Source of the DNA: Bacteroidota bacterium
GTDB lineage: Bacteria > Bacteroidota > JABWAT01
Reading direction: 5' to 3'
Length of the DNA: 64,000 nt
Assembly: GCA_023151185.1 (NCBI GenBank)
Contig: JAKLJL010000010.1
Location: 1 to 64,000 of the forward strand
Each line of letters begins with the position of its first letter. The stretch's first letter is position 1. Below, piece after piece: positions 12,501-58,987 of this stretch. Both the position numbers and the translations under genes were made by a program. The notes beneath the pieces were generated by a model that was not told where the DNA came from, searched no databases, and saw only the letters and a list, made by a program, of their open reading frames with translations.

Positions 12501-14027
12501 GTACTTGCCGGGAATGCCGGAAAAAATCAGGTAGGCGTTATATCATCCGCACAGCCTGTTGACGAAGGTTCTACGTGTACCGTATCCTTCCGTTATGGGG
12601 ATGATGCCGGCTTTCAACTTTCACCTAAAATACGCATGGATTGGCTGAGTCAGGCTGGACAACTGCTTTCCAACTCAGAACAGGCGTTTGAATTTGAGGA
12701 ACTGAATCCCTGGGTCTATTCTTTAACTTTTACGGCTCCCAGGGGAGCCCGGCAGGTTAAAATCGTGTTGCTGAATGGTAATAATACCACTACCTATGCC
12801 GGGAAATCGGCCTATTGGGATGATGTGACACTTAAGGTAAAAACCACTCACTATGTCTATGATGCAAACGGGAACCTGACTCATGACCGGAATAAGGGCA
12901 TGGTGGTATACTCCAACATTCTGAATCTGCCGGTTAAAATTCAGTTTGACGACGGAACCCGGATTGAATGGGTCTGGTCTGCAACCGGCACGAAGTTAAG
13001 GGAAACGGTTTATAATGGTGCTGTAAATACCCGAACCCGTACGTATGTAAACGGATTTGAATATCTTTATCCTGGATCAGGATCTGCAAGTAAACTTGAT
13101 TTTTTTGGAATGGCTGAAGGCCGGGTAAAAAAACTGACAACTGCCCAGAATGGAAGGTTTTACCGGTATGATTACAACATTCAGGACCATCTCGGGAATA
13201 CAAGGGCCACCATTACCCGGAATGCCACATCTTTTTCCATATTGGTTTTGCAGAAAAATGATTACTTTGCATTTGGGCTGAAGAGTTACGGTGTTGAAAA
13301 CGACATTGAGAAAACAGATTATACTTATAATGGTAAAGAGTTCCAGAAAGAAACCGGATGGTACCATTACGGCGCACGGTTTTATGACCCAAGCGTGGGC
13401 AGGTGGTGGGAAGTAGATCCTGTAGATGAGTATCATTCTCCTTATTGTTACGTTGGTAACAATGTTTCAAATTTAATTGATACTGATGGCGAAAAATCTG
13501 CTGATGGGCATCATTTCTTTCCACAAGAATTTTGGGTTCCTGGAAAGGATAGAAATATGGGATTTTCAAAAGAAGCCCAATTGGTTTTTGATACTGAAGG
13601 AATTGGGAAAACGGGTCCTTTGGCAAACCAAGAAGTACATAGGTGGGGATACCAATCTGGTCATAAACAATACAATGATGCTGTGAAGAAACTTACAGAT
13701 GATTGGTTGGCCCAAAATGGGATAGAACCAAGCAAAATGACAGCAAACCAGGCCAAAAAATTATTAAATGCAATTGCAACTAGTGATGACCCTGTTATTG
13801 CAGAATTCAACGCTAAGTTAATTCCAAAAGGAAGTTCTCCGAAAATGAGAATTGCTAAGTTTTCTGGAAAAATGTTGGGCGGGGCTTTTCAAATTCTACA
13901 AATAATTGATTTTATTAATGCTTATAAGACTGCAGAAAAACATGGAGTAAGTGTTTGGCAGGAATTGACTTGGAGACTTCAAGGAACAACAGCAGAAGAG
14001 CAAATAGTCAAAGTGCCAGAGGCATAA
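9552..14027 (+). CDS. RHS-repeat protein with C-terminal GHH-type nuclease toxin
   Basis: The start is GTG at 9552, overlapping the previous stop, or ATG at 9567; either gives a Sec signal peptide ending near ASGQ. The early part resembles the DUF6443-type region of Bacteroidota RHS proteins (SYTDNFGRGSQSISISASP). YD repeats follow (YDALNQLISSDY, HYVYDANGNLTHDR). The RHS core is at about 1240-1311 (DHLGNTRATI, YDPSVGRWWEVDPVDEY), where the cleavage motif is LIDTDGE instead of the usual DPxG. The variable tip (about 1312-1491) begins DGHHFFPQEFW and has later His residues (EVHRWGYQSGHKQYNDAV), the pattern of GHH/HNH endonuclease toxins. It is the effector half of the split RHS pair. Nuclease activity is inferred from the motif. 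Confidence 0.8.
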   Translation: MRIYYMTIFRFKIIFFLFLINLFFKTEASGQTSTLSSIGLSNLSLTNNNNSISVDLTKLLTDGENKKITGIGWWVTSMNISSPPDNPASYNMNLRGDSQSFNDLLDLLNEGQTINFSITRSSYDNPTIPTFIQNTTYQLIFYFKIENQSTGCYSRVFIIYRNGYLDVNYFLEAVGWENWQTVYLSSENLSQDYHYVFSESILTEITDESQINGLSLLQKSKTVSYTDNFGRGSQSISISASPSGNDIVSQVVYDAKGLPSKSYLPYVTTSTNNGAFRTAAETENIDYYKGSGYDPDKKIEKTNVPYSEKELENSPLSRNQRQASPGEAWSLTSEHAIISVASSNTHGSVPIWDASGSVPVMTGYYEQDQLLIAETRDENGHSSWVYTEKSGKEILKKTSNGIKDVATFYVYDEVGNLRFILPPECTTVLASNGWVVTEELMALWVTELRYDSQNRVILKKIPEAEPLFTVYDQLGRVVLTQDGNLRRNNQWMFTKYDQEGRSILTGVYTHTSAQDQAGMQLVMNANSVYWEERSSLNFSTWKGYTQNRVFPTDFSRCELLTVNWYDDYDYNNDGTPDETFDNSDANYPNTLAFYRLKNKVTGSAQKVLSGITPELIAQDNASYYAPVTTSGQVVLKGNRIHLMPGFRSMAGQKLSVGTDVTLPATTHTGSNWLNTVSFYDKYGRVIQTQATTFLTANVATDREISNTSYDFVGKVKTSKLSHKTELDTAPILVSKWFDYDHAGRLLKAWQQVGTEPKVLISAFIYNELGQQVEKKLYSEDNGITFLDSVKSKFNVKGFLTAMESSVFKQELFYNTAMNTVVPGLTGAANFNGNISGTRWNRGGTTIQRVYGYTYDALNQLISSDYAKGGTQSLGFEEKGITYDLNGNIKSLSRTDSNGVTIDLLSYSYLGNKISFVADSKTTTTFTGEFTTVLSPGTDLKAVYTTTFNQDQGGFSDVEPYVAGTISRTGSAYTTNATNGIRVMVLAGNAGKNQVGVISSAQPVDEGSTCTVSFRYGDDAGFQLSPKIRMDWLSQAGQLLSNSEQAFEFEELNPWVYSLTFTAPRGARQVKIVLLNGNNTTTYAGKSAYWDDVTLKVKTTHYVYDANGNLTHDRNKGMVVYSNILNLPVKIQFDDGTRIEWVWSATGTKLRETVYNGAVNTRTRTYVNGFEYLYPGSGSASKLDFFGMAEGRVKKLTTAQNGRFYRYDYNIQDHLGNTRATITRNATSFSILVLQKNDYFAFGLKSYGVENDIEKTDYTYNGKEFQKETGWYHYGARFYDPSVGRWWEVDPVDEYHSPYCYVGNNVSNLIDTDGEKSADGHHFFPQEFWVPGKDRNMGFSKEAQLVFDTEGIGKTGPLANQEVHRWGYQSGHKQYNDAVKKLTDDWLAQNGIEPSKMTANQAKKLLNAIATSDDPVIAEFNAKLIPKGSSPKMRIAKFSGKMLGGAFQILQIIDFINAYKTAEKHGVSVWQELTWRLQGTTAEEQIVKVPEA

Positions 14028-14042
14028 AAATTAAGGATAATT

Positions 14043-14738
14043 ATGCACTATTACAAAAATGAGAACTTTTTTGGATTTTACATAAAAGAAGTTGACTCGG
14101 TGGATACTGATCATTTTTTTGGGGGAAATGAAATTATCAATGGCGCGTTCTGCCCTAATTGTGAAAGATTATTGACACCGCTGTTTACAATTAAAGTAAC
14201 TGATGAAATCAGAGGGATAATGAAATTTATCCCAGAATCACTTGAAATTATTCCGCTATTTTATTGTTGGACTTGTGATTTATTCGAGGAAAATGAAATT
14301 GTATTTTATTACAGTGTTGGTCCTAATTGTGTAAAATACCTCAAAGTCCCAAAGGGAAAAAAAGTTGATGGTTGGCCATATAAAAATTACCCACCTTTTT
14401 TCGAAAGAATTGGAGTTGAGCTCATTAAATATTCAAGGAAAGAATACCAGGTATATATAGATGTATGTACTGGAAAATTTAATTGGCTTGATGTAATTAA
14501 TGAAAATATGATTATATTTTCTGATAATACAATCCTTAATAATCCATGTTTTATTGATAATAAGGGTCACTTAAAAACAATTAAATGCCCAATTTGTTGT
14601 AAACCAATGAAATATTTAGGAAAATTCGGGGATTCATTAAAAATGCAAAATAAATTTATTGGAAATTCTTCTCCAGTTATGGTTTTTCATTTTTGCGAAG
14701 TATGTTGTACCGTTGGCACTTACCATTATATTGATTAA
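14043..14738 (+). CDS. putative immunity protein for the RHS nuclease tip
   Basis: This 231-residue soluble protein starts 15 bp after the toxin gene, with AAGGA before the ATG. I do not recognise a named family. It carries four CxxC pairs (CPNC, CWTC, CPIC, CEVC), suggesting one or two structural zinc sites, and no signal peptide, so it should act in the cytoplasm. The DNA is clearly more AT-rich than the RHS body, as is usual for exchanged toxin-tip/immunity modules. The immunity role rests on position directly after the toxin tip. Confidence 0.6.
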   Translation: MHYYKNENFFGFYIKEVDSVDTDHFFGGNEIINGAFCPNCERLLTPLFTIKVTDEIRGIMKFIPESLEIIPLFYCWTCDLFEENEIVFYYSVGPNCVKYLKVPKGKKVDGWPYKNYPPFFERIGVELIKYSRKEYQVYIDVCTGKFNWLDVINENMIIFSDNTILNNPCFIDNKGHLKTIKCPICCKPMKYLGKFGDSLKMQNKFIGNSSPVMVFHFCEVCCTVGTYHYID

Positions 14739-14761
14739 AACGGAATGTTCCAATAACGGAG

Positions 14762-16204
14762 TTGGATTTGCAACATAAAAGTAGACAAAAAGGTAAGCGA
14801 CTCTATTTAAAATCTATTCCAGCCAATTCAAATAAAACTTTGTATTTGCATGGTGCGACTGACTATGTGATGGAGGAAATTGAGATGACCGGCACCACAG
14901 AAACGGTACGGGAGTATATTTATGGGAGAAATGGTATCATTGCCTTCAGAACAGCCAGTGTAAACCATTTTGTGATCAAAGACCATCTGGGTTCAACCCG
15001 TGTTGTATTCAACGGAACGACCGGTATCATTGAAGATTATTATGATTACGAAGTTTTTGGTGAGACAGCCAGATCCAGAGAAACTGCAAACCTCACCCAA
15101 TACCGGTTCACAGGGCAGGAATGGGACGAGGAAACCAATTATTATAATTTTAAAGCCCGTCTCTATTCACCGAAACTAGGACGGTTTTCCACCGTGGATC
15201 CTGCCGGACAGACCTTTGGGTTGTACAATTATGCCGGGAATAATCCGATTTTGTATGTGGATCCGGATGGTGAGTTCTTTTGGATACCGGCACTTATAGT
15301 TGGTTCAATGTTTCTTGGTCATGATTTAGCAAAAAACGATTTTAAAATGAATATTGGCCAAATGCTTGGTTCCTTTGGTTCTGGCTTTCTAGCCGGGGGG
15401 TTTGGTTCTGCCTCAGGAGCCTTTGATGCAGTCTTATCAGGAGCAAGTTCAATTGCATCAAGCTATTTACCAAGTGTTGGGACAACACTTCCGGGGGGAA
15501 TATCTTTTTCAGCCAATCCGTTTGCAAGTTTTGGTACTACAGGCGTTTCTGGTGGAATCGGAATGAATTTTTCTAAGAAAGTTGGAGACGTGACAGTTGG
15601 TGGCGGAATTGCTGGCGGCTTTTCGAATCAACCTGGTAATCAAAAAAGTGGTGCTTTCTCGCAGGCAACGAGGTCAGCGTCAATAAAGGGGAGCAGTGGT
15701 GTTGGATTCGGATTCAGCATGACAACAAATAAGATGAACCGGAATGTCAACTCACCTTATAATCAAAGTTATTGGCAAGCAACATTATCAATTGGTGATT
15801 TTCATTTAAGCGAATTAAATGACCTGCCAAATACCGATAAAGGATTAACCCAGCAATTAGAAATTGGCATAGGGAATTTTTCAATTGGATCTTATATCCT
15901 TACAAATGATGCAGGAGATAGAACAGTAGAAGGCAATACAAGAGATGCAATTTCAGAAGATACAAATATGCCATTAGACAATAAAACCTATACAAATGGT
16001 GAAGTTTATTCGAGCCCACTGTACATTTCGATAAAGTCAAAAGGTAAAACGTATAAAATTGGATATGATCATCCTGTAATTCAGGATCAACAACAAAATA
16101 GGGTTCACTATTATTTGACAAAAAAGTTATTCGGAGAAAAAAGTCCATATTTTGCTAAGGGAAACTATTCCAGAGCATTTTTTGAAGTCGAAACCCAAAG
16201 ATGA
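14762..16204 (+). CDS. orphan RHS core plus alternative toxin tip
   Basis: The first ~80 residues are poorly conserved and the start (TTG 14762) is uncertain. An RHS core then appears (VIKDHLGSTRVVFNG, YRFTGQEWDEETNYYNFKARLYSP, GRFSTVDPAG, NYAGNNPILYVDPDGEFF) with an intact DPDG motif near residue 167. The tip (170-480) has a glycine-rich, partly hydrophobic start and a beta-rich, Ser/Asn/Gly-rich body, with no toxin family I recognise. It lacks a signal peptide and repeats, so it cannot be a complete RHS toxin. It is best read as a displaced C-terminal tip left when the present tip was acquired, a known feature of rhs loci and a reservoir for recombination. Confidence 0.65.
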   Translation: MDLQHKSRQKGKRLYLKSIPANSNKTLYLHGATDYVMEEIEMTGTTETVREYIYGRNGIIAFRTASVNHFVIKDHLGSTRVVFNGTTGIIEDYYDYEVFGETARSRETANLTQYRFTGQEWDEETNYYNFKARLYSPKLGRFSTVDPAGQTFGLYNYAGNNPILYVDPDGEFFWIPALIVGSMFLGHDLAKNDFKMNIGQMLGSFGSGFLAGGFGSASGAFDAVLSGASSIASSYLPSVGTTLPGGISFSANPFASFGTTGVSGGIGMNFSKKVGDVTVGGGIAGGFSNQPGNQKSGAFSQATRSASIKGSSGVGFGFSMTTNKMNRNVNSPYNQSYWQATLSIGDFHLSELNDLPNTDKGLTQQLEIGIGNFSIGSYILTNDAGDRTVEGNTRDAISEDTNMPLDNKTYTNGEVYSSPLYISIKSKGKTYKIGYDHPVIQDQQQNRVHYYLTKKLFGEKSPYFAKGNYSRAFFEVETQR

Positions 16205-19221: not shown

Positions 19222-20471
19222 CCTGGTTTTCGGACAAAGGACTTCCGGCACTTCGCCAGTTTCAGGCACTGAGTGAAGGTCAGGTCTGGCTTTTTCTGAT
19301 TCGGCAACCGGCGGGAACCTGTAACTGGAAGATTCACCGGAGAGGGAAAACTTTTTCCGGTGCGATTGAAAGCTCTGACCCTGTCCTTTCGGACTGCGCT
19401 TCGGGGTTGATACATAACCTGACCGCACAGCAAACTCTGCGGTCGGGCGACCTTGTTTTTCTGGTTCATTCCGGTTTTACTCCCGACTTCCTCCCGGTTC
19501 CAGCCGGTGAGAAACCCGGATCAGGGTTACCGCTCCTTCTTGGCGGTGAGCCCTACCTGCTGCCGGTGAATTCCGGCGAAAATGACTCTCTTTCCTTTCC
19601 GGGGATCCAAACCGGGGGAGTTTTTCCGCTGGCCTGGTTTTGCTGGAGAAGACTTTCCGCGGAACTGGATGCCCGGCCCGCTTCAGTCTGGGTGGGGCCT
19701 GATTCCCTTTTCCTCGGATCACGCCCGGCATATTCTGACACACCTCAATTCGATCTGCTTCCGCTTGATTCTGCCGGCAGTGACGCAAGCAGGGAAGAGA
19801 TCACCCAGGAAATCAGCCGACAGCGATGGCTTGACAGTTTGGTTCAGGAAGGAGAAGATCTTCCGGATTTGAACTGGGTTCAGGATGCACTGGCTGTACC
19901 TTCTGCCTGGTTCCGTTTTACCGGCGGAGCTGACCGTCAGCTTTTCTCCCCGGCTATTCATTCTCAACTGGCAATCCGGCAGTTTAAATCAGGTTTATTG
20001 GCGGGCGGTGGTACAGCAGCCCTTTTCCTTTCCGGTTTGTTTTTGTGGTCCAGTTTTACAGCCGCCGGGGCCGATGCCGCATGGGATTGGCAGGAAGCCC
20101 ACCGGATTGAAATCACCGAGGTCAGAAAACTGGAGAGTCAGAGTGCAAACCGGGCCCATTGGTACGGACGGAATCCCGTATCCGGTTTCCGTTTGCAGGA
20201 AATTTTACTTTTTGGGCAGGGGCTAACCGATCAGGTCCGGATTGACCAAATCCAACTGAAAACCGGAACGCCACCGGTCAGCAGAGTCATCGGATTTTCG
20301 GATTCTGAAACGGATGTTGCCCGGTATGTTTCAGCCCTTACGGCCCATCCGTCCATTCACTCTGCCTCTCTTACCCGAATGGGACCGGTTTCCGTAAAAA
20401 ACGATCAGGAGATGAAACGTGCGGGAAAATTCAGGTTAATTTTCCAGATCGAACTGGAGACCGGACCATGA
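19218..20471 (+). CDS. GspL/PilM-PilN-like inner-membrane platform protein
   Basis: The 417-residue product overlaps the secretin stop by 4 bp. The first ~235 residues are a soluble, weakly conserved region in the place of the actin-like cytoplasmic domain of GspL/PilM. A single membrane segment follows (about 260-280, GGTAALFLSGLFLWSSF). The rest is a periplasmic domain with the PilN/GspL pattern of coiled coil and ferredoxin-like fold (RIDQIQLKTG ... VARYVSALTAHPSIHSASL). It would link the cytoplasmic ATPase to the periplasmic assembly. Sequence similarity is low; the call rests on architecture and gene order. Confidence 0.6.
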   Translation: MTWFSDKGLPALRQFQALSEGQVWLFLIRQPAGTCNWKIHRRGKTFSGAIESSDPVLSDCASGLIHNLTAQQTLRSGDLVFLVHSGFTPDFLPVPAGEKPGSGLPLLLGGEPYLLPVNSGENDSLSFPGIQTGGVFPLAWFCWRRLSAELDARPASVWVGPDSLFLGSRPAYSDTPQFDLLPLDSAGSDASREEITQEISRQRWLDSLVQEGEDLPDLNWVQDALAVPSAWFRFTGGADRQLFSPAIHSQLAIRQFKSGLLAGGGTAALFLSGLFLWSSFTAAGADAAWDWQEAHRIEITEVRKLESQSANRAHWYGRNPVSGFRLQEILLFGQGLTDQVRIDQIQLKTGTPPVSRVIGFSDSETDVARYVSALTAHPSIHSASLTRMGPVSVKNDQEMKRAGKFRLIFQIELETGP

Positions 20472-20980
20472 CGACTTTTTCTCCGTGGCTGATCCGGTCC
20501 GGGACACTTCTTATTCTGGTGATCCTGTTTGCAACTGTCTCTGACCGGTTTTCAGAAACCCTTGCCGATACCACAGAATTTGACCGGGTGATCCGGGAAA
20601 CGGAAAGTTTAAAATCCCGGGTCGCGGTTCTGTCTGATCTTCAGAAACAGGCTTCCGGGAAACAAGAATCCGCACCGGATACCAGAGAAGTCAGGGTTCC
20701 TTCAGACATTCTGGTTACTATGAGCCGGTTGGTTCTTGACTCGGGCGGAAAAATCCGTTCTGTTACAACTGCTGAAACCCGGCAGACTGCCGACATCCTG
20801 AGCCTTGGGTTCAAAATCGAGTTTGAAACTACCTGGTCTGCCTGGATTCAATTCCGGAAGCGGGCTGAATCCCTGCCTTACCGAACCGAATTCAATTCTC
20901 TGACCCTCAGTCATTTACCAGGCCAATCCGGTCAGATTTCAGTTACCGAAAACCTGACGGTTACGGTGGTGCGGCCATGA
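20468..20980 (+). CDS. GspM/PilO-like assembly protein
   Basis: This 170-residue protein has one N-terminal membrane segment (about 8-24), a short coiled coil (about 35-58, FDRVIRETESLKSRVAVLSD) and a small C-terminal alpha/beta domain (about 75-168), the bitopic layout of GspM and PilO. It overlaps both neighbours by 4 bp, so translation is probably coupled. The preceding gene is the L/N-like partner with which GspM/PilO normally forms a heterodimer. Assignment is by size, topology and position. Confidence 0.6.
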   Translation: MTTFSPWLIRSGTLLILVILFATVSDRFSETLADTTEFDRVIRETESLKSRVAVLSDLQKQASGKQESAPDTREVRVPSDILVTMSRLVLDSGGKIRSVTTAETRQTADILSLGFKIEFETTWSAWIQFRKRAESLPYRTEFNSLTLSHLPGQSGQISVTENLTVTVVRP

Positions 20981-21429
20981 CGAAACTGCTTCTGAATCTG
21001 TTGCTGGGTGGTGGTTTACTGCTGATCTGGTTTGTCATCTGGTCGGATTATTCTGAACTGGCGGTGGATGGAAATCAGGAAATGACCGGTTTGCAAGCTC
21101 CGACTTCTGCCCAGCCGGTCCGGACAGATTCCCTTGAGGCAATCAATCCGTTTCATGTTCCCCATCAGATACCGGAAAAACAGACCCTGATCCCTGTCAA
21201 AAAAATGACAGTATCAAGGGAAAAACCAGCCTTCAGTGCGGTTCTTTTGGGAAAAACCCTCTCGGACGGCCGGGAACGGTTTATTGTGGCACTTCCTGAT
21301 GGCCGGGTTTTTCATGTTCAGCCGGGCGATACCGTCGAGGCGCTTGTGGTGTGGAAATCGGTTGGCGATACGCTGATTCTCAGAAGCCACGACCGGAAAA
21401 CCCTTTACCGGATCGGGTTCGGATCATGA
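20977..21429 (+). CDS. GspC/PilP-like protein with HR-type domain
   Basis: The 150 residues comprise a membrane segment (about 5-22), a low-complexity linker with an INPFHVP motif (the NPF seen in GspC/PilP proteins) near residue 49-55, and a compact C-terminal beta domain (about 85-150). That domain contains VALPDGRVFHVQPGDTVEAL and LILRSHDRKTLYRI, resembling the homology region that contacts the secretin N0 domain. It overlaps the genes on both sides. It would connect the inner-membrane platform with the secretin encoded by the first gene of the operon. Confidence 0.65.
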   Translation: MTKLLLNLLLGGGLLLIWFVIWSDYSELAVDGNQEMTGLQAPTSAQPVRTDSLEAINPFHVPHQIPEKQTLIPVKKMTVSREKPAFSAVLLGKTLSDGRERFIVALPDGRVFHVQPGDTVEALVVWKSVGDTLILRSHDRKTLYRIGFGS

Positions 21430-22544
21430 AAATCATTTCTTTTTCACGCCGGATTCTAAACCATCAGGTGCCCGGTTATTCCTTGGTCACCGTTCTGATT
21501 CTGATGGTTTTTCTTTCAGTTGCTGCAGCGCTGGGATTTCGGTTTTCAGGCGCTGCCACCCGGTCGGTTCATGACCTGCAGGCTGGGATTCTGAGGCAGG
21601 AAACACTTAAAATGACGTGCAACAGGCTTCTTGCCGGAAAGGAATTTTTAAAACCCGGACAGACCGGTTCAGAAGTCCTTGAGGGTCATGCTTTTTATCC
21701 CTTTTATCTGAAGTGGAAAGTCTGGCGGTGGGGCATTCATGATTTCCTGACGGTTACCGTTTCGGACCCAACCGGTTCGGCTGAACGAACCATCCGGAAT
21801 GAACGAAAAGTTCTGATTCCCGAAGGCACCTCAGTTGTTTATGACCAGCCAGGATTCGGGCTGGTCCTGACCAATGGGACGACACTTCTGGGTCCGGTTT
21901 TGCTGCGGTATCCCGAACTCAGAACAACCCGCCTTTCGATGCAGACAGAGGAACGGCCTGTGCAATTTACCCAGCCTCTTTACCGGCTTGAAATTCCTCT
22001 GTTTCAGCCTGCCGGAGAAATTCCGGATGCGCCTGACTGGTCGGTTGTTCCGGAAAACCGGCATGGGTCCTATGTCAGGATTTTGACAGAACCGCTTCCT
22101 GACAGCCTGAATTCCGGGTGGATTGATATCGGGGAAAAACGGGAAATTGACCGGTTTCCTGCAGGGACGGGTAACCAGATTCTAATCAGAAAATCCGTCC
22201 GGTTACGGGCAGGATTTTATCAGGCGGAAGATCTTGTATTTCTTGGGGATACGTTACTTGCGGATCCCGGAACCCGGTTCCATGGGAATCTTTGGGTGTT
22301 CAGAAAACCCGGTTCACCGCCACCGGTGGTAATCCTGAAAAAGCCGTTTCAGATTCAGGGTGATCTGGTTGCTGACGGAACCCTGAGGGCAGAAGGGGCG
22401 GTCATCAACGGCCGGCTCCTGGCCAGCCAAAGTGCTGTCAACCGGCCACCTACCGAATATGTTCATTACCTTTCCGGGATGACTGTTACCGGGGCACCCG
22501 AACCCGGCTTGAACCTTCCGTTGGTTCTGATGGGGTACAAATGA
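21426..22544 (+). CDS. GspK/PilX-like minor pseudopilin with beta-helical C-terminal region
   Basis: The start is ATG 21426, overlapping the previous stop as ATGA. A longer frame from 21351 would run through the preceding gene and is rejected. The 372-residue product begins with a prepilin-type leader and PGYSLVTVLILMVF, in which the usual Glu at +5 is Thr, as in tip pseudopilins of the GspK kind. The remainder is unusual: about residues 250-345 contain repeats such as GNLWVFRKPG, QGDLVADGTLRAEG and INGRLLASQS, resembling bactofilin-like right-handed beta-helix rungs. Probably a tip or priming component. Confidence 0.55.
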   Translation: MKIISFSRRILNHQVPGYSLVTVLILMVFLSVAAALGFRFSGAATRSVHDLQAGILRQETLKMTCNRLLAGKEFLKPGQTGSEVLEGHAFYPFYLKWKVWRWGIHDFLTVTVSDPTGSAERTIRNERKVLIPEGTSVVYDQPGFGLVLTNGTTLLGPVLLRYPELRTTRLSMQTEERPVQFTQPLYRLEIPLFQPAGEIPDAPDWSVVPENRHGSYVRILTEPLPDSLNSGWIDIGEKREIDRFPAGTGNQILIRKSVRLRAGFYQAEDLVFLGDTLLADPGTRFHGNLWVFRKPGSPPPVVILKKPFQIQGDLVADGTLRAEGAVINGRLLASQSAVNRPPTEYVHYLSGMTVTGAPEPGLNLPLVLMGYK

Positions 22545-22957
22545 TACTCCATGTGAAAAAACCGGGGACGTTCCGGATTTCCCTTAAAGGATTTACTCTG
22601 GCAGAAACTCTGGTCAGCATGGTGCTTATCACGATTCTGGCGACCGGATTCTGGGGTTCACTCCTTTTTCTTTTTTCGGAGAGAACAACCGAAAACCAGT
22701 ATGAACTGATCCGCCGGCTGCCTGTCCTTGCTGATTCCATCCGGTCACTGCCGGCAGGGGTTTTGGAGTGGAAGCGGGGAAATGCCCTTTTAAAGGCGGA
22801 GATCACTGACCTTGAGAAGGGCAGGCAAATTTCCTGGAGGTTGTCGGTCAGGAACCGAAACGGAAAAGTTACAGAAAAACTAAACCTGATCACCCGGACC
22901 TGGCCTGACGAAAAACAGTATGACAAGCAAACGGTTTACACCAAAATCAGCCGGTAA
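22541..22957 (+). CDS. type IV pseudopilin (GspI/J-like)
   Basis: The 138-residue product has a leader ending in KG followed by FTLAETLVSMVLITILATGF, with the conserved Glu at +5 and the hydrophobic stalk of class III prepilins (about 18-42). The periplasmic head is small and without recognised motifs. It overlaps the preceding gene by 4 bp and the next by 38 bp. The leader should be cut and methylated; a peptidase candidate is encoded far away at 44010. Confidence 0.75.
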   Translation: MILHVKKPGTFRISLKGFTLAETLVSMVLITILATGFWGSLLFLFSERTTENQYELIRRLPVLADSIRSLPAGVLEWKRGNALLKAEITDLEKGRQISWRLSVRNRNGKVTEKLNLITRTWPDEKQYDKQTVYTKISR

Positions 22958-47383: not shown

Positions 47384-48445
47384 ATGGCAACACCCTCTGC
47401 CAAAACCTGGAGTGCACATCCTGTCATCCATCGTGGAATCAACCGGATTGCCGTTCATTTTGATTCTGATCCTGAGTTAAACCGCCGGATCCAGGCTCTG
47501 GACGGTGCCCGGTGGAGCAGAATGCTGAATTGCTGGCATTTACCGGATACGGAGGCCTATCGGCAGCGGTTCCGGATTGAGTTAGAAAAGCAGGAACCGC
47601 CCGGGCCGGATACTGAGGCAGGACTCCACACGTTTGAAATCTGGCTCCAATCGCGGCGGTACAGTGAAAACACCATTAAATCCTATACCGAAGCACTTCG
47701 GGCCTTTTTACTGTTTTGCCAACCAAAACCGGTTTCTGAACTTGGGAATAACGATGTGATCCGGTTTAATGTTGAGTATATCCGGAAAAAGAATTTATCC
47801 TCCTCCTATCAGAATCAGATTGTCAATGCGCTGAAACTGTTCTTTCTGACGGTAAGGAATCAGGTCATTGAACCCGAAAAAATTCACCGCCCCAAACGGG
47901 AGAAGAAACTGCCGAATGTGTTGAGCAAAGAGGAAATGAAGCGGATGCTTCAGGCTCTGAAAAACGTAAAACATAAAACGATGCTCTCGCTGATTTACAG
48001 TTGCGGACTCAGGCGGAGTGAAATTCTCAATCTGAAGCCGGTGGATATTGATTCGGATCGCGGCGTCATCACCATCCGTCAGGCAAAAGGGAAAAAGGAC
48101 CGGATTGTGCCGCTTTCAAACCGGATTCTGGTTCTGTTGCGGGAGTATTATACCGGATGGCGGCCGGTGACCTGGTTGTTTGAAGGCCAGGTTCCGGGTG
48201 AACAGTATGACCCCCGGAGTTTGTCAAGTGTGCTGAAGAAAGCAGCTGAAGAAGCCGGGATAAAAAAACCGGTTACGCTTCACTGGCTGAGGCATAGTTA
48301 TGCGACACATTTACTTGAGTCAGGGACAGATTTGCGGGTCATTCAGGAGTTATTGGGGCACAACAGCAGCAAGACAACTGAGATATACACGCATGTGAGT
48401 ACCCAAACGATTCAAAAGGTTAAAAGTCCGTTTGATGATTTGTAA
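47384..48445 (+). CDS. XerD-like tyrosine recombinase at the head of the cassette array
   Basis: The 353-residue product has an N-terminal extra domain (about 15-65, with RIAVHFDSDPELNRRI and WSRMLNCWHLP) of a kind common in Bacteroidota integrases. A SAM-like core-binding domain (about 82-165) and a catalytic domain follow, with Arg210 (CGLRRSE), Lys235 (AKGKKDR), His300/Arg303 (LHWLRHSY), His326 (LLGHNSS) and Tyr335 (TEIYTHV), all present. The insertion (IntI patch) that marks integron integrases is missing between the Lys motif and HxLR. The gene reads toward the cassettes and ends 97 bp before the first cassette junction, the place of intI in reverse integrons. Whether it acts on these attC sites is unproven. 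Confidence 0.9.
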   Translation: MATPSAKTWSAHPVIHRGINRIAVHFDSDPELNRRIQALDGARWSRMLNCWHLPDTEAYRQRFRIELEKQEPPGPDTEAGLHTFEIWLQSRRYSENTIKSYTEALRAFLLFCQPKPVSELGNNDVIRFNVEYIRKKNLSSSYQNQIVNALKLFFLTVRNQVIEPEKIHRPKREKKLPNVLSKEEMKRMLQALKNVKHKTMLSLIYSCGLRRSEILNLKPVDIDSDRGVITIRQAKGKKDRIVPLSNRILVLLREYYTGWRPVTWLFEGQVPGEQYDPRSLSSVLKKAAEEAGIKKPVTLHWLRHSYATHLLESGTDLRVIQELLGHNSSKTTEIYTHVSTQTIQKVKSPFDDL

Positions 48446-48548
48446 AAAAATCTTATCTTGCCCGAAACAAACAAGTGAAAAACAGTCTCATACCTCTCTG
48501 GATGTGGCAACTATGAGAACATTTTTCACCTATATAAACGAGTTGGCA
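48446..48548 (+). other. attI-like junction at the array head
   Basis: GTTGGCA at 48542-48548 is the proposed recombination point: GTTGGCAGC (48542-48550) is the exact reverse complement of GCTGCCAAC at 54745-54753, the R'' end of the same cassette. No foldable L''/L' arms occur in the ~100 bp upstream, as expected for a non-hairpin attI rather than an attC. The AAAC just before the point resembles the AAAC/GAACC preceding GTT in the attC sites. Confidence 0.5.
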
Positions 48549-48615
48549 GCAAGTGTAGAAAGACACGAAATCTTGACAAGACTATTGAGAATAATAAAGA
48601 ACTGAAGAATTTATA

Positions 48616-50205
48616 ATGGCCAAAAAACAAAAAACAACAGACACATTAAACTTAGAATCCATACTGTTTAATTGCAGGGAATATTTACGAAGTAATGCAT
48701 CACTGAATGATAAAAGGGACTTGCTTTTAACTCTCGTCTTCTTGCGATTTATTGGAGAGAAGTTTGAGAACACGCAAAATGAAATGAAGCAAGAATGCCT
48801 CAACAATGGTATTACAGATGAGGAAGTAATAAGCTCGTTTCTTAATAGCCCAAGTCGTTACAAAGGGATAGCTTTTGTGCCGGAAAAGGCACGTTGGTCT
48901 ATGATTATAAAAGAGCCTGCATCAAAATTAAATGCCACACTGGATGACGCTATTCAAGAACTTGAAAACAGTAGTGATGCGTTAAAAGGATGTGTTCGTT
49001 TAGGATTGTTTACTTCCATTAATCTCGAAGCCAACGTTATTAAAAAGGTTGTTGACGAGGTGAATAAGATTTCGCACAAGACTTTTGGTGAGGAGAAAGA
49101 TTTGATTGGTCGTGTGTATGAATATTTCCTTAAGTCTTTTGCTGTGAATGCAACTAAGGAAGAAGGCGAGTTTTATACTCCACACGATATAGTTGAGTTG
49201 ATAGCAGCTTTTGTTGAGCCATTTGATGGTACGCTTTACGACCCTTGTTGTGGTTCGGGTGGTATGTTTATTCAGTGTGCAAAATATGTAGAAGCAAAGC
49301 AAGGTGATATTAAAATGGTGAACGTGTATGGACAGGAGAGAGACCCTGCCACATACCGACTTGCCAAAATGAACCTTGCTATGCGTGGCATCTCACATCA
49401 CCTTGGTGAGAAAAATGCCGATACATTTTCAAATGACTTGCACAAAGGGCTGACCTTCGATTTTATTATGGCCAATCCGCCATTTAACTTAAAGAAATGG
49501 TATGACATCTCTTTGAGCAAAGATGGGCGCTGGGCTGATTACGCCTTACCACCTGAGGGCAATGCCAACTATGCCTGGATATTGCATATGCTCTCTAAGT
49601 TGAAGGCTGGTAAGGGTGTAGCAGGCTTCCTGCTTGCTAATGGTGCATTGGGCGATGGCGATGCAGTGGCAATTCGTAAAAAATTGATTGAGAAAGACAA
49701 GGTAGAAGCTATTGTGGTGCTACCTCGTGAGTTATTCTATACTACTGATATATCTGTTACGCTTTGGATATTGAACGAGAACAAAAAGGGCGGTATGTTT
49801 CACGGTCGCAAATTGCGTAACCGAGAAAAGGAAATCCTCTTTATGGATTTACGCCAATGGACTGAAAACCCGGTGAAGAATGAACAGAAAAAGAAAGTAG
49901 AGTTGAAAGCCGACCAGATTAAGCGAGCCACAGAAATCTACTTCACGTGGCAAAGCGAGGTAACGGATGGTGCAAATTATGCCGAACCAGAATTATACAA
50001 GTCTGTTGGCTTTGAAGAGTTAGAAAAAAATAATTTCTCGCTTGTACCCAGCCGATATATTGAGTTTGTTGACCGTGATACTAAAATAGATTATCATCAA
50101 GTACTGACCGAAACAGCGACAACTGTTGCCGACCTATTGAAACGCCAACAGCAAAATGACGAAACATTGCGTAACGCCCTAAAGCAGCTTGGTTATGAGT
50201 GTTAA
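48616..50205 (+). CDS. hsdM: type I restriction-modification methyltransferase subunit
   Basis: The 529-residue adenine-N6 methyltransferase has an N-terminal helical HsdM_N domain (about 10-150, LRSNASLNDKRDLLLTLVFLRF), then EEGEFYTPHDIVELIAAF, the SAM-binding motif I DPCCGSGGM (about 209-217) and catalytic motif IV NPPF (about 287-290), and a C-terminal helical region contacting HsdS. Together with HsdS it methylates the recognition site; with HsdR it forms the restriction complex. It starts 74 bp inside the cassette, and hsdS overlaps its stop by 11 bp. Confidence 0.95.
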   Translation: MAKKQKTTDTLNLESILFNCREYLRSNASLNDKRDLLLTLVFLRFIGEKFENTQNEMKQECLNNGITDEEVISSFLNSPSRYKGIAFVPEKARWSMIIKEPASKLNATLDDAIQELENSSDALKGCVRLGLFTSINLEANVIKKVVDEVNKISHKTFGEEKDLIGRVYEYFLKSFAVNATKEEGEFYTPHDIVELIAAFVEPFDGTLYDPCCGSGGMFIQCAKYVEAKQGDIKMVNVYGQERDPATYRLAKMNLAMRGISHHLGEKNADTFSNDLHKGLTFDFIMANPPFNLKKWYDISLSKDGRWADYALPPEGNANYAWILHMLSKLKAGKGVAGFLLANGALGDGDAVAIRKKLIEKDKVEAIVVLPRELFYTTDISVTLWILNENKKGGMFHGRKLRNREKEILFMDLRQWTENPVKNEQKKKVELKADQIKRATEIYFTWQSEVTDGANYAEPELYKSVGFEELEKNNFSLVPSRYIEFVDRDTKIDYHQVLTETATTVADLLKRQQQNDETLRNALKQLGYEC

Positions 50206-51325
50206 TAAAGAAGAGAGTAACTTGGTTCACTTAGGAGACTATATTGAGCTATGCGATGAAAGGAATAGTGATGGAAATTATACACTTGATGATGTAAGAG
50301 GAATAAGTATCTTAAAAAAACTTATTCCAACAAAGGCTGATATGCAAGATGTATCATTGTCTCCATATAAATTATTAAAACCTCGAGAATTTAGTTATGT
50401 AACCGTAACATCTCGCAACGGAGGCAAAATTTCATTAGCAATAAATGATTCTAACCAAACCTTTATTGTTTCATCCTCATACGAAGTGTTTAAATCTATA
50501 AATAAAGAAGAGCTACTACCAGAGTACCTATACATATTATTAAGTCGAGAGGAATTTGATCGTTTATCTCGCTTTAATTCGTGGGGAAGTGCAAGAGAAA
50601 CATTCGATTGGAGTGAGTTATGTCGAATTCAAATTCCACTCCCCGACCCTGATATTCAGCAGGAATTAGTTGATACCTATAATGGACTAAAAGCATTAGC
50701 AGAGCAGAACGAAGCCTTAATCAAGCCACTCACCGAAGCTTGCCAGGCCTATATTGTCGATTGTAAAAAGAAGTACCCAGAAGTGGAACTTGGGGAGTAT
50801 ATTGAGGAATACGATAAAAGAAATTCTGATAAGAAAATAAAAGCGGTAAAAAGTGTATCGATAACTAAAGAGTTTAAAGAAACTGGAGCAAAAGTCAACA
50901 AAGATGAATTGGAGGGCTACAAACTAGTTCCACCAAGGCACCTGTCATATGTGCAAACTACTAAGAATGAGAAATGTTTTGCAAATGCACTTAACACCAC
51001 TAATGAAACTTATGTAGTTACCCAAGTTAATAGAGTTATTCGTTCCAAAGATGAGACAGTATTAAATATTGGCTTTTTGCATCTAATATTCAGAGGGGTT
51101 GAGTTTGACAGATATGCGATTTTTAACTCTTGGGGTAGTGCAAGAGAAACTTTTGATTGGAATGAATTATGTAGAGTGCGGATTCCTCTCCCTCCTCCTG
51201 AAGTTCAGCAAGCAATAGTAAACATATACAACTGTGCCGAGGAGGCGAAGAAAATAGCAACGGAGGCTCGTGAAAAAATGAAAATGCTCTGCCCTGCTTT
51301 GGTACAAAGAGCCATAAATGGATAG
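50195..51325 (+). CDS. hsdS: type I restriction-modification specificity subunit
   Basis: The start is ATG 50195, overlapping hsdM. The 376-residue product has two target-recognition domains, each opening with Y-I-E-x-x-(D)-x-R-N-S-D (residues about 12-22 and 203-213), followed by conserved helices. Each domain ends with nearly the same block, FNSWGSARETFDWSELCRIQ (about 127-146) and FNSWGSARETFDWNELCRVR (about 310-329). Such similar halves are typical of type I S subunits reading a bipartite site, each TRD one half. Both TRDs look related, so the recognition site may be nearly symmetric in base content. Confidence 0.9.
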   Translation: MSVNKEESNLVHLGDYIELCDERNSDGNYTLDDVRGISILKKLIPTKADMQDVSLSPYKLLKPREFSYVTVTSRNGGKISLAINDSNQTFIVSSSYEVFKSINKEELLPEYLYILLSREEFDRLSRFNSWGSARETFDWSELCRIQIPLPDPDIQQELVDTYNGLKALAEQNEALIKPLTEACQAYIVDCKKKYPEVELGEYIEEYDKRNSDKKIKAVKSVSITKEFKETGAKVNKDELEGYKLVPPRHLSYVQTTKNEKCFANALNTTNETYVVTQVNRVIRSKDETVLNIGFLHLIFRGVEFDRYAIFNSWGSARETFDWNELCRVRIPLPPPEVQQAIVNIYNCAEEAKKIATEAREKMKMLCPALVQRAING

Positions 51326-54300
51326 GGCAAAAAAAATAGTAGATAAAATGAAAGGTAAATTTTTTGAAAGTGATTACGAAGAAGCCCTCATCGACCTGCT
51401 GGGTCAGCAAGGCTGGACGTACACACACGGTGGCAGCATAGCTCGCAACAATAGAGAAGTACTTCTAATAGATGATTTAACGAATTATCTGCAGCAACGC
51501 TATACCGAATTACTGGCAAGTGATATAGAGGAGATTATCAACCGTTTACGCCACGTAAGCGGGCAAACTCATTTCGAGCTACTTCGTAATACCTATTACT
51601 TTGTGCGTGATGGATTGCGTTATACACGAAACCAAGACGGAAAAATATTCGATATTGAGTTTGTTGATTTTGAATTTGAAAATAAAAACAATGTTTATCG
51701 CTGTGTAAACCAGTTTGAAGTAGGATATGGACTTAAAGATGATGTTCGCATACCCGATGTGTTACTCTTCGTGAATGGTATTCCCCTATGCATTTTCGAA
51801 CTTAAAAATCCAACAGACTTTAATGCAACTATTGCCAATGCATACGAGCAAATTCATATTCGCTACAAAAGAGATATATCGCATCTTTTGCGTTACTGCC
51901 CACTCTCCTGCATCAGTGATGCATCAATAAATAACACAAAACTTGGAACAACCTACACGCCATACAATCACTACTATGCGTGGAAGAAAGTAAATAACGA
52001 GGACGAATCAGCCAAGCGGGGCATTGACCAGGTAAAAACCATCGTGGCAGGCGTGTATGAGCCCAATCGCTTCTTAGAGATTCTTCGTGATTACGTTTAT
52101 TTCCCCGACAAAACACACGACAAAGAAGAAGAGGTAGTGTGCCGTTACCCTCAATTTTTTGCTACCCGAATGCTAAGAGAGAGTGTACTGAATGCACACA
52201 CCGCAAATAGCAGAAAAGGCGGAACATACTTTGGTGCAACGGGCTGTGGCAAAACCTATACAATGATGTTTTTGGCTCGTCAACTATCATTACGTTGCAA
52301 GGAGCTTGGCTCTCCTACTATTGTGATGATTGTGGATAGAGATGATCTACAAACGCAAGCTGGCAAATTATTCCTTCGTTCAGAAGATTTTTTATCATTG
52401 GGAACAGCTAAAATCATTGCAGACAGAGAAGACCTTAAAAGAGAACTATCCATTAGAGAATCAGGAGGATTCTTTATCTGCACCATCCAAAAATTCTGCG
52501 AAGAAATAGGCGAATTGAATACCCGTAAAAACATTATTTGCTTTTCAGACGAGGCACATCGGACTCAAGTGCGTTTGAATAAGCAGTTAAAAATAAAGGA
52601 TAAAAAAGATAAAAGCGAAATAATAGAAGTCGAAGGTATCGGAGTATTTATAACAAAGCCCTATGCAGAGCATTTGCGTGCTGCATTCCCAAATGCCACT
52701 TTTGTTGGTTTTTCGGGCACACCTATTGATGAAACTATTCAAGTTTTTGGTGATGTGGTGGATAGCTACACCATGCAACAATCTGTTGAAGATGAAATCA
52801 CAGTTGAGCTAAAGTATATCCCTCGCATAGCCAATGTTACGCTCGATAGTGAGAAAGTAAAAGAGATAGACGCTTATTATAAGCAATGTGCTTTGGAGGG
52901 TGCAACCGAAGAGGATGTGGCAGCCAGCAAAAAAGCAATGAGTGCAATGGAAGTGATTCTTGGCGATGAGGAACGATTAGAACGACTTGCCAAGGATATT
53001 ATAGAACACTATACCAAAGCTTGCGAAAACAAAGCTGATGTAGTACAAAAGGCAATGATTGTATGCAGCAAGCGTAAAATTGCATACAAATTACTCCAAA
53101 AGTTCAAAGCCCAAAAGCCTGAATGGTTTGAAGAAAAAAAATCACCGGACGACAGCAAACTAACTGCCGAAGAGTTAAAGCAACTCTCTCCAATGCCTAC
53201 CATAGCAATGGTGGCTACCCGTGGTAAAGATGACCCTAAGGATATGTTTGACTATCTGGGCGATAAACCACGTAGTAAAAAATTGGATGATGCATTCAAA
53301 ACCGAAAATTCCAATTTCCGCATCGTTATAGTGGTCGATATGTGGATTACTGGCTTTGACGTTCCTTGCCTAACATACCTCTACAACGACAAACCACTGC
53401 AAAAACAAACGCTTATTCAAACCATTAGCCGTGTCAATCGGAAATATGAGGGCAAAGAATACGGATATATCATTGACTATATCGGTATTCGAGACAATAT
53501 GATGGAGGCAATGCGTAAGTTTGGTGGTGAAACATTCGGCCCAAGCGAAGATGATGTTAAACAAGCATTAGAGGCTTTAATTATTGAGTTGGATATAATT
53601 AGGAAAGTTTTTGTTGATTTTGACATATCTCCATTTACTGATTCCAAAGCAACTCCATTGGAGCGATTAGAATGTCTGTCTTCGGCAGCCGATTACATCA
53701 TCACACTAAATAATCAGCTGAAACTTAGCAACGATAAAGAAAAACCCAAAACCGTTAGTGCAAAAACATTCTTCTTGGCTCACGTAAAGCGGTTGAGAAC
53801 TGCTTATGACATTTGCCAGCCATCAAATGTGCTTACCAATGAGCAACTCTCCTTATCACAGTGTTTTATGGCGGTTGCATCTTATATCAGAAAGACATCG
53901 GGTGAGAGACACGATACAGAGAGTATGAATCGTGCAGTTGAAAAAATGGTTGCAGAAGCATTGAAATGCAATTCGGTGGTTAGTATTCTGCAAACCGATG
54001 TAGAAGAAAATATTTTTAGTCCTGAGTTTGTGGAGCAGTTGGAACTCATAAAATTACCTGCCACCAAATTGGAAGTCTTGATTAAGATGCTTCGCAAGTC
54101 AATCAAAGAATACAAGGACACCAACAAAATAGCAGCTGAAAAATATGAAGAGTTACTGAAAAAAACCCTGGAAGAATACCATAACAGAAGAGCGAGTTTA
54201 TCCAGTGAAGAAGCCAGCGAAACGCAAACAGAGGCAGTAAATTCAATTATCAGAAATGCTACGCAACAGGCTTTGGATATACTCGCTAAATTAGGAGAAG

Positions 54301-54641
54301 ACAAAGACAGCTTTAGAAAACTGGGATTAACTTTCGAGGAAAAGGCTTTCTATGATATTCTAATGCATCTACGAGACAAGTATAACTTTGAGTATGGTGA
54401 GGACAAAAAAGTAGGTAGCTTGATAATAAACGATAAATGTAAAGTCCTAGCTCAGAAAATTAAAGAGTTGATTGACGTGCAATCCTCTTTTACCGACTGG
54501 CTCAACAATACCAATGTAAGAGCAGACCTAAACCAAAAAATATTCTTCTGTTTGCATAATAATGGGTACCCACCTCAATACAACGATGAAGTTTTTGATC
54601 AAGTAATGGGGCAGGTAGAAAACTTCAAACTTAAAAATTAA
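51318..54641 (+). CDS. hsdR: type I restriction endonuclease subunit
   Basis: The 1107-residue motor nuclease overlaps hsdS by 8 bp; an internal ATG at 51351 is also possible. An N-terminal PD-(D/E)xK nuclease is visible (VRIPDVLLFVNG ... CIFELKNP, about 145-165). The SF2 helicase has Walker A GATGCGKTYTMMF (about 305-317), DEAH (SDEAHRT, about 410), GFSGTPIDE and motif VI-like QTISRVNRKYEGKEYGYIIDYIG (about 700-722), then a long helical C-terminal region. The motifs appear intact, so the system is probably functional. Genes are in order M-S-R, all inside one cassette. Confidence 0.94.
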   Translation: MDRAKKIVDKMKGKFFESDYEEALIDLLGQQGWTYTHGGSIARNNREVLLIDDLTNYLQQRYTELLASDIEEIINRLRHVSGQTHFELLRNTYYFVRDGLRYTRNQDGKIFDIEFVDFEFENKNNVYRCVNQFEVGYGLKDDVRIPDVLLFVNGIPLCIFELKNPTDFNATIANAYEQIHIRYKRDISHLLRYCPLSCISDASINNTKLGTTYTPYNHYYAWKKVNNEDESAKRGIDQVKTIVAGVYEPNRFLEILRDYVYFPDKTHDKEEEVVCRYPQFFATRMLRESVLNAHTANSRKGGTYFGATGCGKTYTMMFLARQLSLRCKELGSPTIVMIVDRDDLQTQAGKLFLRSEDFLSLGTAKIIADREDLKRELSIRESGGFFICTIQKFCEEIGELNTRKNIICFSDEAHRTQVRLNKQLKIKDKKDKSEIIEVEGIGVFITKPYAEHLRAAFPNATFVGFSGTPIDETIQVFGDVVDSYTMQQSVEDEITVELKYIPRIANVTLDSEKVKEIDAYYKQCALEGATEEDVAASKKAMSAMEVILGDEERLERLAKDIIEHYTKACENKADVVQKAMIVCSKRKIAYKLLQKFKAQKPEWFEEKKSPDDSKLTAEELKQLSPMPTIAMVATRGKDDPKDMFDYLGDKPRSKKLDDAFKTENSNFRIVIVVDMWITGFDVPCLTYLYNDKPLQKQTLIQTISRVNRKYEGKEYGYIIDYIGIRDNMMEAMRKFGGETFGPSEDDVKQALEALIIELDIIRKVFVDFDISPFTDSKATPLERLECLSSAADYIITLNNQLKLSNDKEKPKTVSAKTFFLAHVKRLRTAYDICQPSNVLTNEQLSLSQCFMAVASYIRKTSGERHDTESMNRAVEKMVAEALKCNSVVSILQTDVEENIFSPEFVEQLELIKLPATKLEVLIKMLRKSIKEYKDTNKIAAEKYEELLKKTLEEYHNRRASLSSEEASETQTEAVNSIIRNATQQALDILAKLGEDKDSFRKLGLTFEEKAFYDILMHLRDKYNFEYGEDKKVGSLIINDKCKVLAQKIKELIDVQSSFTDWLNNTNVRADLNQKIFFCLHNNGYPPQYNDEVFDQVMGQVENFKLKN

Positions 54642-54746
54642 AAACGTAACGTATAGGCGACACAGACAGACAAGAAAGAAAGCGTACAATGACACTGAAA
54701 CTCAACACTGACAATGGTTTACAAGGACAGACGACAGAACACCAGC

Positions 54747-54879
54747 TGCCAACAGCGGTTTGGCGTAATGGCGGGTTCAGTGCTTCGTATGACAGTTTTG
54801 TGGTAGGTTCAAGTGCAGTTCTTCGATTGAACTTTTGTGCTGAAAATCCGCCACTACGCCAAGCCGCGAACCGTTAGCA
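54747..54879 (+). other. attC site A (end of the R-M cassette)
   Basis: R'' TGCCAAC 54747-54753; L'' 54755-54774; loop of 73 nt; L' 54848-54867; R' GTTAGCA 54873-54879. L'' and L' are complementary at 18 of 20 positions. L' to GTT spacing is 5 nt. The site spans 133 bp. The loop holds AGTGCTTCG (54779-54787), shared with sites B and C. Between the hsdR stop and R'' are 105 bp with no gene, including ACGTATAGGCGAC, which may be a relic of another R' end. Confidence 0.9.
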
Positions 54880-56502: not shown

Positions 56503-56634
56503 TGCTAACAGCACCTACCCAAAAGTGGCGGTTCAGGTGTTAAATCAAGCTTTGTGCTTCTACCAAAGTTTCTGCTTGGTTGACAGTGAAGTGCTTCGAA
56601 ATCGCCACCTTCGGGTAGCTGCAAAACGTTAGGC
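56503..56634 (+). other. attC site B
   Basis: R'' TGCTAAC 56503-56509; L'' 56511-56530; loop of 72 nt; L' 56603-56622; R' GTTAGGC 56628-56634. L'' and L' match at 17 of 20 positions. TGGTGCTAAC (56500-56509) is the exact complement of GTTAGCACCA (54873-54882) at the start of the same cassette. The loop carries AGTGCTTCGAAATCG at 56590-56604, identical to a stretch in site C. Confidence 0.92.
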
Positions 56635-56671: not shown

Positions 56672-57865
56672 ATGAATAAAAACGAAAAAATATTTGGATT
56701 TGAAAAAAACGCCTTTTTTACAGGACTAACAAGTTTTTTTACTGACACATCTACCAAAATGGTATATAGTGTTATGCCTCTTTTTTTGTTATCTATAGGA
56801 GCATCTAAAACTACGATTTCTTTAATTGAAGGAATTGCTGAGAGTACAGCATCTTTATTAAAGGCAATTTCGGGATACTGGAGTGATAAGATTGGTAAAA
56901 ACAAACCATTCATGATTATTGGATATGGTATTACAGCCATTATAACTCCCTTGTATGCATTAGCAAGAATACCAATTCAGATTTTATTTTTTCGTTTTTT
57001 TGAACGCATAGGAAAAGGTTTAAGAGCAGCGCCGCGAGATAGCCTTATTAGCGGCTCAATTAAAAAAAATGAAGCTGGTAAAACTTTTGGGTTTCAAAAA
57101 GCAATGGATAATAGTGGAGCTATTGTTGGTCCCTTGATTGCTTTCTTATTGTTATCTATTTTTCCATTAAATTATTCTTACATATTTTTATTGGCAACCA
57201 TTCCTGCAATTCTTGGTGTATTAACGATTATTATTTTTATAAAAGAGGCAAAGGCAGAAAAAAAAGAAACCGCCAATAAGATTACGTTAAAACATTTACC
57301 CAAAAAGTTCTATTTCTTTCTTATTATAATTTTCGTATTTACTCTTGGTAATTCAGCAGATGCATTGTTGCTTGTAAAAACAAGCGAAACTGGTATAGAT
57401 AAATCATATATTCCTTTTGTGTATATGATATTTAATACCGTATCTGTTATGCTTGCCATACCGATTGGAAAATTATCGGATAGAATTGGTCGTGAAAAAT
57501 TAATTATTCTAGGTTTTTTAGTGTATGCGATTGTTTATTATTTTTTCGGCAAATTCAATAGTATAAATGTTTTTATTTTCTTGTTTATGCTGTATGGATT
57601 TTACAGTGCATTGACTGATGGTAGCCAGAAAGCAATGATTTCTGATATTGTTAGTAAAGATTTGAAAGGAACGGGTTTTGGTATTTATCATGCTGTACTT
57701 GGAATTACTTTATTACCTGCTAGTTTAATTGCAGGATTACTGTATGATAGAGTCAATTCAAATGCACCGTTTTATTTTGGTTCTGTAATGGCATTAATTG
57801 CCACTATACTAATGATAATATTTACAGTTTTAGACAAGAGAAAAAGAAAAATTAACGTTGCCTAA
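56672..57865 (+). CDS. MFS transporter
   Basis: The 397 residues form about 12 hydrophobic segments. The cytoplasmic loop-2 motif is recognisable as SGYWSDKIGKNKPF (about 70-83) and repeats in the second half as IGKLSDRIGREKL (about 268-280). RFFERIGKGLRAAPRDSLISG (about 108-128) is a block seen in a group of multidrug/sugar-efflux-like MFS proteins. It is the only gene in cassette 3. It is very AT-rich, with the ATG 43 bp after the junction. Efflux of a toxic compound would fit a cassette gene, but the substrate is unknown. Its stop lies inside the next attC site's R'' box. Confidence 0.85.
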   Translation: MNKNEKIFGFEKNAFFTGLTSFFTDTSTKMVYSVMPLFLLSIGASKTTISLIEGIAESTASLLKAISGYWSDKIGKNKPFMIIGYGITAIITPLYALARIPIQILFFRFFERIGKGLRAAPRDSLISGSIKKNEAGKTFGFQKAMDNSGAIVGPLIAFLLLSIFPLNYSYIFLLATIPAILGVLTIIIFIKEAKAEKKETANKITLKHLPKKFYFFLIIIFVFTLGNSADALLLVKTSETGIDKSYIPFVYMIFNTVSVMLAIPIGKLSDRIGREKLIILGFLVYAIVYYFFGKFNSINVFIFLFMLYGFYSALTDGSQKAMISDIVSKDLKGTGFGIYHAVLGITLLPASLIAGLLYDRVNSNAPFYFGSVMALIATILMIIFTVLDKRKRKINVA

Positions 57866-57990
57866 CACGCGGTATAGTTAATTGCCGGTGCAGTGCATAT
57901 TCGAGCGTTTCAGCCCGTATCAAAAGTAGTTGTAACTTGACAGGAAAGTGCTTCGAAATCGGCAACTAACCATACCGCCAAACGTTAGCG
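57860..57990 (+). other. attC site C
   Basis: R'' GCCTAAC 57860-57866; L'' 57869-57887; loop of 72 nt; L' 57960-57978; R' GTTAGCG 57984-57990. L'' and L' agree at 17 of 19. GTTGCCTAAC (57857-57866) is the exact complement of GTTAGGCAAC (56628-56637) at the head of the MFS cassette. The transporter stop codon lies inside R''. AGTGCTTCGAAATCG recurs at 57947-57961. Confidence 0.93.
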
Positions 57991-58853: not shown

Positions 58854-58987
58854 CGCTAACATCGTATTGGCAATAGTGGGGCTGACAGTTGTAAACTTAA
58901 CATTTGTAATTCAATTGGGCATTTGTGCAAATGTTGGGCAGACGTTTTTCAAATGCCCCACCATCGCCAATACGTAAACCGTTACCT
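58854..58987 (+). other. attC site D
   Basis: R'' CGCTAAC 58854-58860; L'' 58863-58881; loop of 74 nt; L' 58956-58974; R' GTTACCT 58981-58987 (degenerate). The arms agree at 17 of 19. ACCGCTAAC (58852-58860) is the exact complement of GTTAGCGGT (57984-57992) at the head of cassette 4. The loop lacks the AGTGCTTCG motif of the other sites but has a nested dyad, GGGCATTTG (58918-58926) with CAAATGCCC (58950-58958). Confidence 0.9.

Follow-up and report, generated by a model that had tools for sequence, protein, structure and literature searches.

Restriction-modification (R-M) genes have reportedly been found in superintegrons, where those described by Vaisvila et al. in 2001 are said to be short type II systems. 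Sedentary chromosomal integrons of the Vibrio type combine an attI site with tandem cassettes that end in attC sites, and antiphage defence genes occur among their cassettes (PMC12409362). Capture of cassettes has been reported to require the I2 region (PMC7790495), and the accessible part of a study on an integron-like recombinase subgroup calls it essential but not fully conserved there (PMC8138268). Neither a type I R-M cassette nor an I2-less integron turned up as an earlier finding in a search of the open-access literature, with subscription papers mostly outside its scope. Here we describe a locus which, judged from its sequence and from comparison with other genomes, very probably contains a single gene cassette of an integron-type array bearing a whole type I R-M operon. 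The window, i.e. the complete stretch of 64,000 nucleotides that was analysed, shows the following features:

47384–48445, + strand: tyrosine recombinase at the head of the array, similar to XerA and integron integrases (NCBIfam NF040815, 247.6 bits, cutoff 220)
48533–48548, + strand: attI-like site TATAAACGA/GTTGGCA, the slash marking the predicted crossover between 48542 and 48543
48543–54873, + strand: putative cassette 1 of 6331 bp, holding the whole type I R-M system together with its attC
48616–50205, + strand: hsdM, modification subunit, N6-adenine methyltransferase (Pfam N6_Mtase 2.5e-88, HsdM_N 9.8e-14)
50189–51325, + strand: hsdS, specificity subunit with two repeated target-recognition halves (Pfam Methylase_S 2.4e-11; PADLOC Specificity_I 2e-141)
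51318–54641, + strand: hsdR, restriction subunit (TIGR00348, 408 bits, cutoff 284.6; PADLOC REase_I 7e-247)
54642–54746, + strand: spacer of 105 bp from hsdR to attC A, preserved across the cassette copies, without a model match
54747–54879, + strand: attC A, belonging to the R-M cassette (heuristic scan, covariance model, fold z)
56503–56634, + strand: attC B, end of cassette 2 with a TauD-like and an unknown gene (heuristic scan, covariance model)
57860–57990, + strand: attC C, end of cassette 3 with an MFS transporter (heuristic scan, covariance model)
58854–58987, + strand: attC D, end of cassette 4 with two small genes and final site of the array (heuristic scan, covariance model)

The attC sites were identified by a heuristic scan that looks for R and L boxes. 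In the 64 kb it found exactly four, each on the + strand and downstream of the integrase, and in five mononucleotide shuffles it found none. A covariance model detected the same four sites A–D in the window and no others. As A–D are among its 14 training sites (the other ten being from six related loci), their E-values are not independent, and the independent evidence consists of the heuristic scan and of model matches in genomes left out of the training. RNAalifold on the 14-site alignment gave an attC architecture with a bulged L stem and an R-box stem in which AAC/GTT is invariant. In this alignment 86% of the cells are paired vs 60% after shuffling, with 75 double changes vs 28, and covariation and model both bear out the R and L boxes and the conserved imperfect hairpin of an attC. 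The fold z of attC A is −3.5 and −3.2 on the two strands. No Rfam match was found in the window.

At the left end, position and conservation mark the site after the integrase as an attI, at which recombination would be expected. The motif TATAAACGA/GTTRGC is common to relatives of the integrase: TATAAACGA/GTTAGC follows the integrases of loci L069 (73% identical) and L070 (55%), and TATAAATAA/GTTAGC follows that of L132 from Flavobacterium (63%), the first cassette being different in each. The bare GTTRGCA pattern was discarded as boundary evidence, as 11 occurrences vs 12.8 expected are not above chance, and the left boundary rests on the comparative evidence. Beyond the core R box, a header like GTTRGCRGTAATGGTA opens several cassettes, namely at 48542 and 57984 in the window and after the attI in L069, L070, L076 and L132.

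The R-M genes themselves are open reading frames that overlap as one operon, with hsdS starting at TTG 50189 or ATG 50195. All three subunits required by a type I system are present and intact, and their matches in Pfam, NCBIfam and PADLOC are to the families expected. The HsdM translation shows the motifs DPCCGSGGM and NPPF, from which m6A modification is predicted, and the HsdR translation shows GATGCGKT, DEAH and PD...ELK, predicting ATP-dependent restriction. Compared with close relatives, hsdM and hsdR have Ka/Ks values of 0.03–0.09 and have therefore stayed functional, these two genes being the ones to which the values apply. A near-identical stretch, FNSWGSARETFDW, is present in both HsdS halves as an internal repeat (50573–50670 and 51122–51219), which suggests that the two halves might recognise similar half-sites. 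As a candidate for the Pc promoter, which drives the cassettes in canonical integrons, a sigma-70-like site was sought on the + strand between 48300 and 48800 and not found, by a scan that does not cover Bacteroidota promoters.

The initial annotation had placed intact hsdM, hsdS and hsdR between matched ends at 48543–54873, and this was confirmed: the reading frames are uninterrupted, and the ends match the recombination points of the attI on the left and of attC A, the one attC, on the right. Neither the heuristic scan nor the covariance model found an attC inside 48543–54746. The array of the window consists of four successive cassettes of 6331, 1755, 1356 and 997 bp, each ended by one attC. 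The 37 intervals measured at six loci have a median length of 981 bp, and only two of them exceed 2.3 kb, both of them R-M cassettes (6331 and 6869 bp). The GC content of hsdMSR is 39% vs about 46–50% in the flanking host DNA. A search of congeners for an empty chromosomal site, with 48542 joined directly to 54874, found none. The congeners G001 and G002 have their upstream genes in common with the window through gspE. Beyond gspE the congener locus L104 carries other genes and neither integrase nor array; downstream synteny is lost and the breakpoint is unreadable. Elsewhere in the window, long ORFs at 4318–16204 look Rhs/YD-repeat-like from their translations and are unrelated to the R-M cassette.

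The recombinase heading the array reaches 221 bits on the integron integrase model TIGR02249, which is under the cutoff of 265. In the IntI-type proteins of related genomes the span from KDR to HxLRH covers 108 amino acids; here it is 67, and about 41 residues are missing, the IntI-specific I2 insert of canonical integrons. Among the other hallmarks of a canonical integron, an attI beside the integrase (recognised by conservation), hairpin-forming attC sites and tandem attC-ended cassettes are present. The IntI-type proteins pass TIGR02249 where tested, with 430 bits for L068 and 436 bits for L084. L068 (9109–10110) represents a canonical IntI with I2 insert in the genome of the window, G000, located at C5:61111–62109 near a contig end. 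The same genome has more attC sites of the window family (C21:105478–112442, C21:288202–289622, C11:385577–387547, C4:50091–52825 and C25:153483–153612), beside which no related integrase was found (CALIN-like clusters).

With regard to which enzyme moved the cassette, the adjacent I2-less integrase is the probable mover. It is rather unlikely, although this is the strongest of the alternatives, that the cassette is real but was moved by the canonical IntI on contig C5 or by a past integrase. The reported need for the I2 insert in cassette capture (PMC7790495) and the IntI with its 430 bits in the same genome would fit such an origin, but the attC sites point to the neighbouring enzyme. Their family lies near most of the I2-less integrase loci examined, including L132, L077, L078 and L082, which had no part in the training. 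The untrained locus L132 belongs to the same Flavobacterium genome as one of the R-M copies discussed below (L048), and its integrase, the one 63% identical to that of the window, is followed by 11 sites of this family. At the IntI-type loci L068 and L084–L087 the model of the window family gave no match, and a heuristic scan of L084–L086, of which L084 and L085 are from genus relatives, revealed a different, homogeneous attC family. The array lies 3' of the integrase and in the same direction in the window, L069–L071, L073, L076 and L132, and on the other side of the integrase in L083, L077 and L078. The window, L069, L070, L071 and L132, with their integron-type arrays under an I2-less recombinase, may form an integron class of their own within Bacteroidota and neighbouring groups. 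We lean slightly towards the broader view of a separate kind of integron, with I2-less tyrosine recombinases and their own attC family of about 130 bp, which would exist across Bacteroidota and neighbours beside IntI integrons and transfer between classes multi-gene cassettes that can reach the size of a complete type I R-M system.

To follow the R-M unit into other genomes, 84,980 species genomes were scanned with HsdR, resulting in 23 loci. In three of the closest, from Limnovirga soli (L037), a Kapaibacterium MAG (L038) and Flavobacterium sp. LC2016-12 (L048), the DNA homology to the window starts at 48542 or 48543, and the left-hand DNA is unrelated in each. The unit in L048 lies between two attC detected by the model, at 6490–6622 (E 3e-10) on the left and 13397–13491 (E 4e-12) on the right, neither of which was used in training, and it forms one interval of an attC array with at least seven sites at the locus. 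Both the left and right arms of attC A resemble the attC at 13397–13491, and the spacer between hsdR and attC is kept (84.5% over 71 bp). The same genes, spacer and attC thus make up a single interval of an array both in the window and in L048, whose hosts are distant from each other. In L048 this array adjoins a serine recombinase and a ComM-like C-terminal fragment (20366–22903), which suggests that it sits in a genomic island in comM.

The other copies are less complete. In L037 and L038 the left end is retained together with some of the spacer, and the right attC has been lost; to the left of the unit no attC is recognisable in L037 and a partial one is suspected in L038. L049 from Ignavibacteria shows a weak remnant on the right side, and L039 from Tenacibaculum has sites upstream of the R-M genes with a different left end. 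The R-M unit of Limnovirga has phage-like genes next to it (L037 13312–23303), and this region is present in IMG/VR as a viral contig (L098). L098 was the one match among viral contigs, its sequence after hsdR being the same as that of the Limnovirga locus, where the attC seems to be cut off. Among plasmids there was no HsdR copy above 60% identity and no close HsdM. When about 1,500 genomes of the phylum and of chosen orders, families and classes were searched for further copies of this kind, only the known loci came up again, with one more, L100.

The spacer also bears on whether the cassette is simple or composite. A lost internal attC or another boundary between hsdR and attC A, raised as a possibility by the initial annotation, was searched for in 54642–54746 and none was detected. 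We consider it quite improbable that the loss of an internal attC has fused an R-M cassette to another, small one and that the two are now mobile as one. This would agree with the 105 bp of spacer containing no known gene, but the same spacer follows hsdR in L048, L037 and L038 (it also aligns, more weakly, with L049) and shows no relic attC, so that any such fusion predates the common source. Even less credible, indeed very improbable, is an entry of the operon beside the attI by some other route, with attC A coming from a small neighbouring cassette and the boundaries coinciding by chance: most relatives of the operon do have no cassette ends, but three other genomes begin at the same base next to different left neighbours, and in L048 the operon is joined via the same spacer to a related attC.

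The single-cassette reading is thus the one we favour, and with it the proposal made from the sequence alone that a three-gene R-M unit can move as one cassette, which gains support from exact boundaries common to other genera and from the second complete copy in Flavobacterium. Mobility of the R-M system by cassette recombination appears likely. In L035, L036 and the remaining R-M relatives, which form the majority, cassette ends in the form of an attC or header were not recognisable. Relatives of this kind had been named beforehand as evidence against a cassette; they do exist, but all they demonstrate is that the operon occurs outside cassettes as well. In the tree of HsdM and HsdR all cassette-type copies are located in one clade of seven rows (93/94 support) in which the hosts are mixed. 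Probably the operon was captured once and then spread, sometimes losing its ends; as most relatives have no recognisable cassette ends, the most parsimonious account is a single capture with later transfer and loss of ends.

As a mechanism we propose that a tyrosine recombinase, most likely the platform integrase at 47384–48445, excises the R-M unit at its attC, after which the unit would insert at an attI or at another attC. Between distant Bacteroidota and their relatives the cassette may have moved by cassette recombination or inside larger elements. Being now in the first position, the operon might be expressed as a working restriction system against foreign DNA. The further idea of the initial annotation, that the system could help to fix the array by post-segregational killing, is a hypothesis; well-studied type I systems show restriction alleviation, which suppresses self-damage (PMC12707154).

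In summary, the comparative evidence indicates that a single cassette can hold a multi-subunit defence system of 6–7 kb. This is far more than the usual length of about 1 kb in these arrays and would widen what cassette capture can spread. As the platform integrase is without the domain thought to define cassette capture, the need for I2 becomes directly testable. The superintegron R-M genes of Vaisvila et al. 2001 and those of the window both stand in a cassette context, the latter being a complete type I hsdMSR operon. Type I hsdMSR operons of Bacteroidota (L035–L056) share the gene order and have HsdR proteins about 75–90% identical, but most of them are without recognisable cassette ends. 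For the integron-like subgroup of simple tyrosine recombinases, the source regards the insertion as essential to the working of integrons, and its accessible part makes no mention of I2-less members that have attC arrays (PMC8138268). Finally, the locus resembles the sedentary chromosomal integrons of the Vibrio type in its attI, its tandem attC-ended cassettes and a defence system among them, and differs from them in an integrase that lacks I2 and has the same direction as the array, and in a cassette that appears to hold a three-gene system of 6 kb.
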